From: Chlamydiota bacterium
GTDB taxonomy: Bacteria; Auribacterota; Tritonobacteria; UBA1439
Length of the DNA stretch: 21,799 nucleotides
Direction of reading: 5' to 3'
Assembly (NCBI GenBank): GCA_012729785.1
Contig: JAAYCL010000018.1
Span: 1-21,799 of the forward strand
In this document: positions 7,102-8,131 of the stretch, piece after piece
Layout of the letters: each line of letters opens with the position of its first letter
Position numbering within the stretch: position 1 is the first letter of the stretch
Made by a program: the position numbers and the translations under genes
The notes under the pieces: model-generated
The model's input: only the letters and a program-made list of their open reading frames with translations
Told to the model about the DNA's origin: nothing
Database searches by the model: none

Positions 7102-7623
7102 CTACCGTTTTCCCCGCAACGTGAGAATCCCCCCCCAGGGCCATGCGCCGCCGAACGTGTCGCCGATGTCGATCACCCACGGGCGGGCAGCGGAGGGTAC
7201 TCGGCCGGCTGAAAATCGATTCGCACCGGCGTGGGCGTGGGTTCCGGAGCACGACTGAATGAGTATACCGTCCCCTTGTCGCTCGCTCCGCCCAGCCCCG
7301 TCACCCCGTGGAGCGCATCGCCGTTCAGTATCAGGGGTCCCCAGGGATACTCCCCATCCGCGCCCGCGGACTCGTGCAGAAGCGTGAAATCCCCGCCGTC
7401 TGTTCGGATGGAAAAGATCGTCCCCTTCCCCTGCGCGCCGCCTTCGGCCGTCGTCCCGTAGAGCGTACTCCCGTCGGATACCAGGCCGTGCCCGGGCCCC
7501 TCCCCGTCGCCTGTCGCGCCCGCGAAGCTGCGCAGAATCGTGTGCGACGCGCCGGCGGCCCCCCCCCGCCGTCACGGCGGCCACGCTCAGTATCAACGCG
7601 ATCCCCCTCGCCCATTCAGTCAT
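7102..7623 (-). pseudogene. Frameshifted secreted GloVer-repeat protein
   Basis: The ATG at 7623 (GGAGAGAGG upstream) opens a signal peptide, M-T-E-W-A-R-G-I-A-L-I-L-S-V-A-A-V-T-A. At a run of nine G (minus strand; 7559-7567) the meaningful frame shifts by one base. In the shifted frame I read two GloVer-type repeats with the motifs S-D-G-S-T-L-Y-G-T-T-A-E-G-G-A and L-H-G-V-T-G-L-G-G-A-S-D-K-G-T-V-Y, then a P-T-P-T-P linker and V-R-I-D-F-Q-P. That frame stops at 7173-7175. Meanwhile the original frame recovers a fitting end, W-V-I-D-I-G-D-T-F-G, and stops at 7102. Two opposite shifts therefore keep the total length open. It may be a decaying gene, a sequencing or assembly error, or a phase-variable gene. 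The protein is short for a GloVer family member, which usually has many repeats. Confidence 0.7.
7559..7567 (-). repeat. Nine-base poly-G tract at the frameshift
   Basis: Nine G residues (read on the minus strand) lie just after the signal peptide coding region of the GloVer gene. Eight G would bring the signal peptide and the repeats into one frame. Such tracts are hot spots for slipped-strand change and also for sequencing error. Confidence 0.85.
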
Positions 7624-7720
7624 GACGCCCCTCTCTCCTCCAGCTATCCGGCTGTGCGTTCGCGCACGGCACACAGCCGGGACCGTTCCCGGCATTCCGT
7701 GCTCAACCGTCAACCGCGCA

Positions 7721-8131
7721 TCATTCAGGCATACCGACACTGCCCCCCCCCTCGATCGCCCCCCCTACACCGCGACGCACCTCGCGCTCCCCGCCCTTGC
7801 TCGGCCCGATGAAATCGCTCCTGTGCACGACCTTCACACGGTAACGACACCCCGGCCCGGGACCGAATCCCCCGCCCGATCTCGATCCGTCAAACTCGAC
7901 ATGCAGCAGGGAGCCCACGGGGTACTCCCGGCAGGCGAGGAAATAGAGCCCCCCCGCGCTCACGTTCACCGTGCAGGTCGACTCGCCGTGCGACGCCGAA
8001 ACGGCATCCTCTCTCCATACCCTGATCGGGAGATAGAGATTGCACCGAATATGTCTGCGCCTCTCTCCGACGACCGCGGCTGTGTCCGCCGCCTCCGCCC
8101 CGGCGACGCACATCGCCTTCTCCTGTCTCAT
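7721..8131 (-). CDS. PilZ-domain protein
   Basis: This is a 136-residue cytoplasmic protein. The R-R-x-x-x-R motif (R25-x3-R29 within E-R-R-R-H-I-R) and N-V-S-A-G-G at 56-61, matching (D/N)-x-S-x-x-G, are the two c-di-GMP contacts of PilZ domains. The following L-x-F-x-x-x-x-x-x-P-V-G-S-x-L pattern also fits. The last ~25 residues are Gly/Arg-rich and outside the fold. The start is placed at 8131, where ATGA overlaps the stop of a small upstream ORF; a start at 8113 preceded by AGGAG is equally good. It stands upstream of the frameshifted GloVer gene (97-base gap). PilZ proteins relay c-di-GMP levels to motility, secretion or surface-polymer systems; the partner here is unknown. Confidence 0.85.
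   Translation of the reverse strand: MRQEKAMCVAGAEAADTAAVVGERRRHIRCNLYLPIRVWREDAVSASHGESTCTVNVSAGGLYFLACREYPVGSLLHVEFDGSRSGGGFGPGPGCRYRVKVVHRSDFIGPSKGGEREVRRGVGGAIEGGGSVGMPE

Follow-up and report, generated by a model that had tools for sequence, protein, structure and literature searches.

A GloVer-repeat gene with two frame changes, probably decayed, and the C-terminal tail that it shares with many secreted proteins

Poly-G tracts are a feature of phase-variable genes, for example in Campylobacter and Neisseria, and some secreted proteins of other bacteria end in short modules that direct their sorting. The known C-terminal sorting tags include PEP-CTERM and GlyGly-CTERM (PMC3237569) and MYXO-CTERM (PMC11980579). 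We analysed a stretch of 21,799 nucleotides (the window; contig JAAYCL010000018.1 of assembly GCA_012729785.1, a bacterium of the Auribacterota) in which a gene for a secreted GloVer-repeat protein has a nine-G run directly after its signal peptide and a tail-like module at its C-terminus. The original prediction offered sequence errors, gene decay or phase variation as explanations of its two frame changes. We find decay to be the best supported of these, because the loss of repeats and of the conserved Y-G-W end accompanies the two frameshifts. The frameshifts of the window would then be ordinary gene decay, for which the label 'phase switch' would mislead, and the tail is of greater interest: it is common to dozens of secreted proteins of an uncultured lineage, and no family model was found for it.

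Layout and reading frames of the gene

The gene is located on the minus strand, from 7623 to 7102, and its parts are distributed over two reading frames as follows.

7637..7641, minus strand: Shine-Dalgarno-like site GGAGG, 13 bases before the ATG (read from the sequence)
7568..7623, minus strand: ATG start and signal-peptide-like N-terminus, frame 1, MTEWARGIALILSVAAVTA (translation and alignment)
7559..7567, minus strand: nine-G run and first frame change, from frame 1 to frame 2; the GloVer frame starts at 7568
7371..7505, minus strand: first GloVer repeat, frame 2 (TIGR03803 match, residues 22-66 of the frame-2 protein)
7245..7370, minus strand: second GloVer repeat, frame 2 (one of the two stretches matching TIGR03803; alignment)
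7173..7244, minus strand: TP-rich linker and first half of the C-terminal tail, frame 2, PVRIDFQPAEYPPLPA (tail profile match 7176-7244)
7135..7197, minus strand: second half of the tail, frame 1, without the usual terminal Y-G-W, RPWVIDIGDTFGGAWPWG (tail profile match 7135-7197)
7102..7134, minus strand: residues beyond the usual end of the tail, up to the TAG at 7104-7102 (translation)

Translated from the ATG at 7623, frame 1 begins with MTEWARGIALILSVAAVTAGGG..., which looks like a signal peptide and can be aligned with those of intact GloVer proteins from this genome and its relatives; past the nine-G run the same frame becomes an arginine-rich, meaningless sequence. Between 7568 and the TGA at 7175-7173, frame 2 reads ...SHTILRSFAG...GLVSDGSTLYGTTAEGGAQGKGTIFSIRTDGGDFTLLH...NGDALHGVTGLGGASDKGTVYSFSRAPEPTPTPVRIDFQPAEYPPLPARG-stop and contains, in this order, the two GloVer repeats, the TP linker and RIDFQPAEYPPLPARG. 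The motif VIDIGDTFG is encoded back in frame 1 (7176-7150), and the second frame change is at about 7178-7190. The original prediction had described this arrangement of a signal peptide in one frame, GloVer motifs in the next after the nine-G run and a return to the first frame near 7180, and it is borne out in all three parts. A ribosome starting at the ATG would, on the sequence as it stands, make a signal peptide and then out-of-frame residues, but no functional repeats. Scans of the gene region for promoters and terminators found none. The roughly 660 bases at 7102-7765, where the broken gene and the last part of the upstream gene lie, contain four G runs of at least seven (8, 9, 9 and 7 long).

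The coding evidence agrees with the GloVer frame. Only the frame-2 protein exceeds the curated cut-off of the NCBIfam model TIGR03803 (GloVer, Gloeo_Verruco), with an E value of 5.4e-19 and 67.7 bits against a cut-off of 44; the frame-1 protein has no match to this model. A 3-periodic coding model trained on the organism's own genome marks 7256-7545 as coding in the GloVer frame only, with a score of +0.08 per codon compared to about -0.40 in the other two frames. The score of the repeat part corresponds to the 7th percentile of intact gene windows, which is coding-like but weak. Frame 1, as had been pointed out earlier, is indeed open throughout, but this openness is weak evidence because the same relative frame is also open in 36% of 123-codon stretches taken from intact genes of this genome.

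G runs in the genome

This genome, with a GC content of 66%, is rich in long G runs, and the window contains four runs of at least nine G or C where about one is expected. We examined 73 distinct tracts of at least nine, namely those from the first 100 genome places listed and the window's own. Among these, all 39 runs that are found inside predicted genes are in frame (39/39), including two runs of ten in the window and one run of nine in an intact GloVer paralogue on contig C27, where the run is not near the start of the gene. A per-tract frame comparison had suggested that several G runs break genes. This was rejected: ten runs located beside a coding-frame change or a short gap, when read residue by residue, turned out to be ordinary gene junctions, with the next start codon mostly within about 20 bases after the tract.

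Runs of 9-12 G are often found at gene junctions, shortly ahead of the start codon of the following gene (loci L040, L046, L047, L051, L060, L084, L088, L091 and L092; a few bases away), and such junction runs look as if they were part of, or neighbour to, the ribosome binding site. The longest run seen by far, a G/C homopolymer of 17 bases, separates two predicted genes (L111, 1533-1549; G000 C27:33332-33348, G000 being the genome of the window).

We surveyed about 211 kb of predicted coding sequence around the listed tracts, in which some loci overlap and short frame changes may be missed. The 126 same-strand gene junctions yielded seven borderline cases only: in six of them a stop follows within about 130 bases and the next gene has start codons of its own, and in the seventh the stop is at the junction itself. 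Nowhere else in these roughly 211 kb was a convincing frameshift found inside a gene.

Probable gene decay and the alternatives

The intact GloVer paralogue on C27 is 532 amino acids long from its start, and GloVer homologues of four relatives (G001-G004) are similar in size and have about 7-8 repeats, counted by eye. GloVer proteins of relatives span about 400-750 amino acids with many repeats, whereas the window copy has two and thus no long array; the second of these resembles the last repeat before the linker in the intact homologues. The GloVer array presumably folds like a propeller, for the closure of which two repeats would be too few. A search of flanking genes across the family revealed no syntenic copy and no orthologue of the window gene.

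The tail permits a direct comparison across the second frame change. A search of the organism's own genome with the window tail retrieved C38 at an E value of 0.0086 and, far more weakly, C40 at 2.4. Their C-termini, PIRLNYQPPEYPAPPWFPHVDTGGAYGDHGWASWGWR-stop and MKINFQPDPETVSPPYGWMLDWVEGWEGAEILGWH-stop, respectively, are related tails, and both run uninterrupted through the point at which the window gene changes frame. The shift near 7180 is therefore a real break relative to homologues.

Compared to its intact homologues, the gene has thus accumulated several lesions, as pseudogenes do: two frame changes, the disappearance of most repeats and the disappearance of the conserved Y-G-W end. We consider it probable that the gene once encoded a secreted GloVer-repeat protein and has decayed recently, and decay explains all of the lesions together. 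Its ancestor probably comprised a signal peptide, about 7-8 GloVer repeats, a TP-rich linker and a C-terminal NFQP...YGW tail; repeats may have been lost through recombination or slippage between copies, and frameshifts would then have accumulated once function was gone. The decay would be recent, as the start region and the codon pattern are still recognisable. Counter to decay, the GloVer part is free of internal stops and its conservation is good, a state to be expected of recent decay only. A short protein with two repeats might also, in principle, be a functional derivative.

The likeliest alternative is an otherwise intact short gene that assembly or consensus errors have broken in the sequence at two points, within the G run and near 7180. 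Homopolymers are the commonest site of such errors, and undoing both shifts produces one continuous frame that joins three parts that belong together. However, the in-gene runs of at least nine among the tracts examined are in frame without exception, the second break is outside any long homopolymer, and two errors within 400 bases would be a coincidence given that the survey contains no other convincing in-gene break. Furthermore, errors leave the presence of two instead of 7-8 repeats and the missing Y-G-W unexplained. We therefore regard this explanation as unlikely and less favoured than decay.

The original prediction also proposed a phase-variable surface protein that is switched by slippage at the nine-G run, the position of which, directly after the signal peptide of a secreted repeat protein, suits such a switch. 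Loss of one G would indeed join the signal peptide to the repeats, yet the TGA at 7175-7173 is reached before the tail is complete. Because the GloVer frame stops inside the tail, a one-base switch of the tract alone cannot yield the full protein. Tracts of at least nine G are, moreover, common in this genome, where those read are in frame inside genes or located at gene junctions, and the nine-G run of the intact GloVer paralogue is in frame and away from the start. This part of the prediction is not supported, and we consider phase variation very improbable. Programmed recoding, in which the ribosome or polymerase slips at both places in opposite directions and so joins the three parts into a full protein, is hardly credible, as it would be unusual for one short gene to have two programmed shifts, none of the intact homologues relies on them, and the second site, judged by eye, is not a recognisable slippery heptamer.

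The C-terminal tail and known systems

An alignment of 14 tails gives the consensus [IV]R[IV]NFQP-x(6-8)-P-x-GY-xx-D-x-G-xx-YG-(x)n-YGW-[RLQ], in which N, Q, P, D and W are invariant and one G is nearly so. The tail is roughly 35 residues long and is borne at the extreme C-terminus by about 25 secreted proteins of the organism's own genome. A profile search of this genome found 32 places at E values up to 1. When 30 loci were read, 26 stop 0-4 residues after the tail match, most of them ending in G-W, two (L155 and L175) stop 14 and 22 residues after it, and two (L149 and L162) continue past the tail into a longer stretch. In the relatives, the tail is terminal at 19 of the 22 assignable loci. 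All ten tail proteins with a visible start (10/10) begin in a signal-peptide-like manner, as judged by a simple hydrophobicity test. The tail loci are L146-L175 in the organism's own genome and L116-L145 and L255-L273 in relatives. About ten tail-bearing genes, apparently an array of secreted proteins, are located on one strand within 23 kb at G000 C40:598-22901.

Among 384 genomes, many copies of the tail are present only in G000, G001, G003 and G006, which belong to one class; G002 and G005, of the same family, have no tail at E values up to 1e-3. The few readable hits in G004, G026, G234 and G374 mark the start of a longer domain, and the tail resembles the initial 35 residues of that domain. 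The longer domain looks malectin-like, but Pfam, NCBIfam and PDB searches with it gave nothing to confirm this. Pfam and NCBIfam searches with the tails found no model either, and no report of such a tail was found in literature searches.

Considering (i) the placement of one module at the extreme C-terminus of many different proteins (26/30 loci) and (ii) the secretion signals of these proteins (10/10 N-termini), we tentatively suggest that the tail may be a new lineage-specific C-terminal tag for sorting or anchoring, about 35 residues in length and apparently derived from the N-terminal strip of the longer domain; some 25 secreted proteins here and many in G001, G003 and G006 have it. We regard this as a possibility somewhat short of probable.

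Two known types of processing enzyme were considered, and neither follows the distribution of the tail. Exosortase (PF09721) is present only in G001 and G006 and does not track the tail, and the T9SS sortase model NF033707 has below-cut-off hits only, which also occur in the tail-less G002. An exosortase-type tag is rejected because the tail has no hydrophobic helix. Should the tail prove to be a sorting tag, it would suggest that this group uses an export or surface-attachment route not yet described, because exosortase does not follow the tail's distribution.

As a separate observation, a weak, below-cut-off match to the T9SS sortase model (a peptidase related by sequence) and a terminal YGW tail are combined in one long open frame in each of three genomes, at L157 (G000 C40:18869-21949), G003:C1:333891-336911 and G006:C122:6051-9101.

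The locus resembles three described systems and departs from each of them. Like GloVer proteins (TIGR03803), the product of the gene would be secreted and have the LYGTT..GG..GkGTiFs repeat motif, a TP-rich linker and a C-terminal module, but it has two repeats instead of about 7-8 and its gene has two frame changes; the C-terminal module also differs from that of the intact C27 paralogue. With the phase-variable genes of Campylobacter and Neisseria it shares an early poly-G tract and a secreted product, but a change in the tract alone does not restore the protein, and the other in-gene tracts of the genome are in frame. Finally, the tail is akin to PEP-CTERM, GlyGly-CTERM and MYXO-CTERM in that a short conserved module forms the very C-terminus of numerous secreted proteins of one genome that otherwise differ from each other, frequently behind a low-complexity linker, but the NFQP...YGW tail differs from them in that both the hydrophobic helix and the basic cluster are absent, as a reading of all 14 aligned tails confirms.
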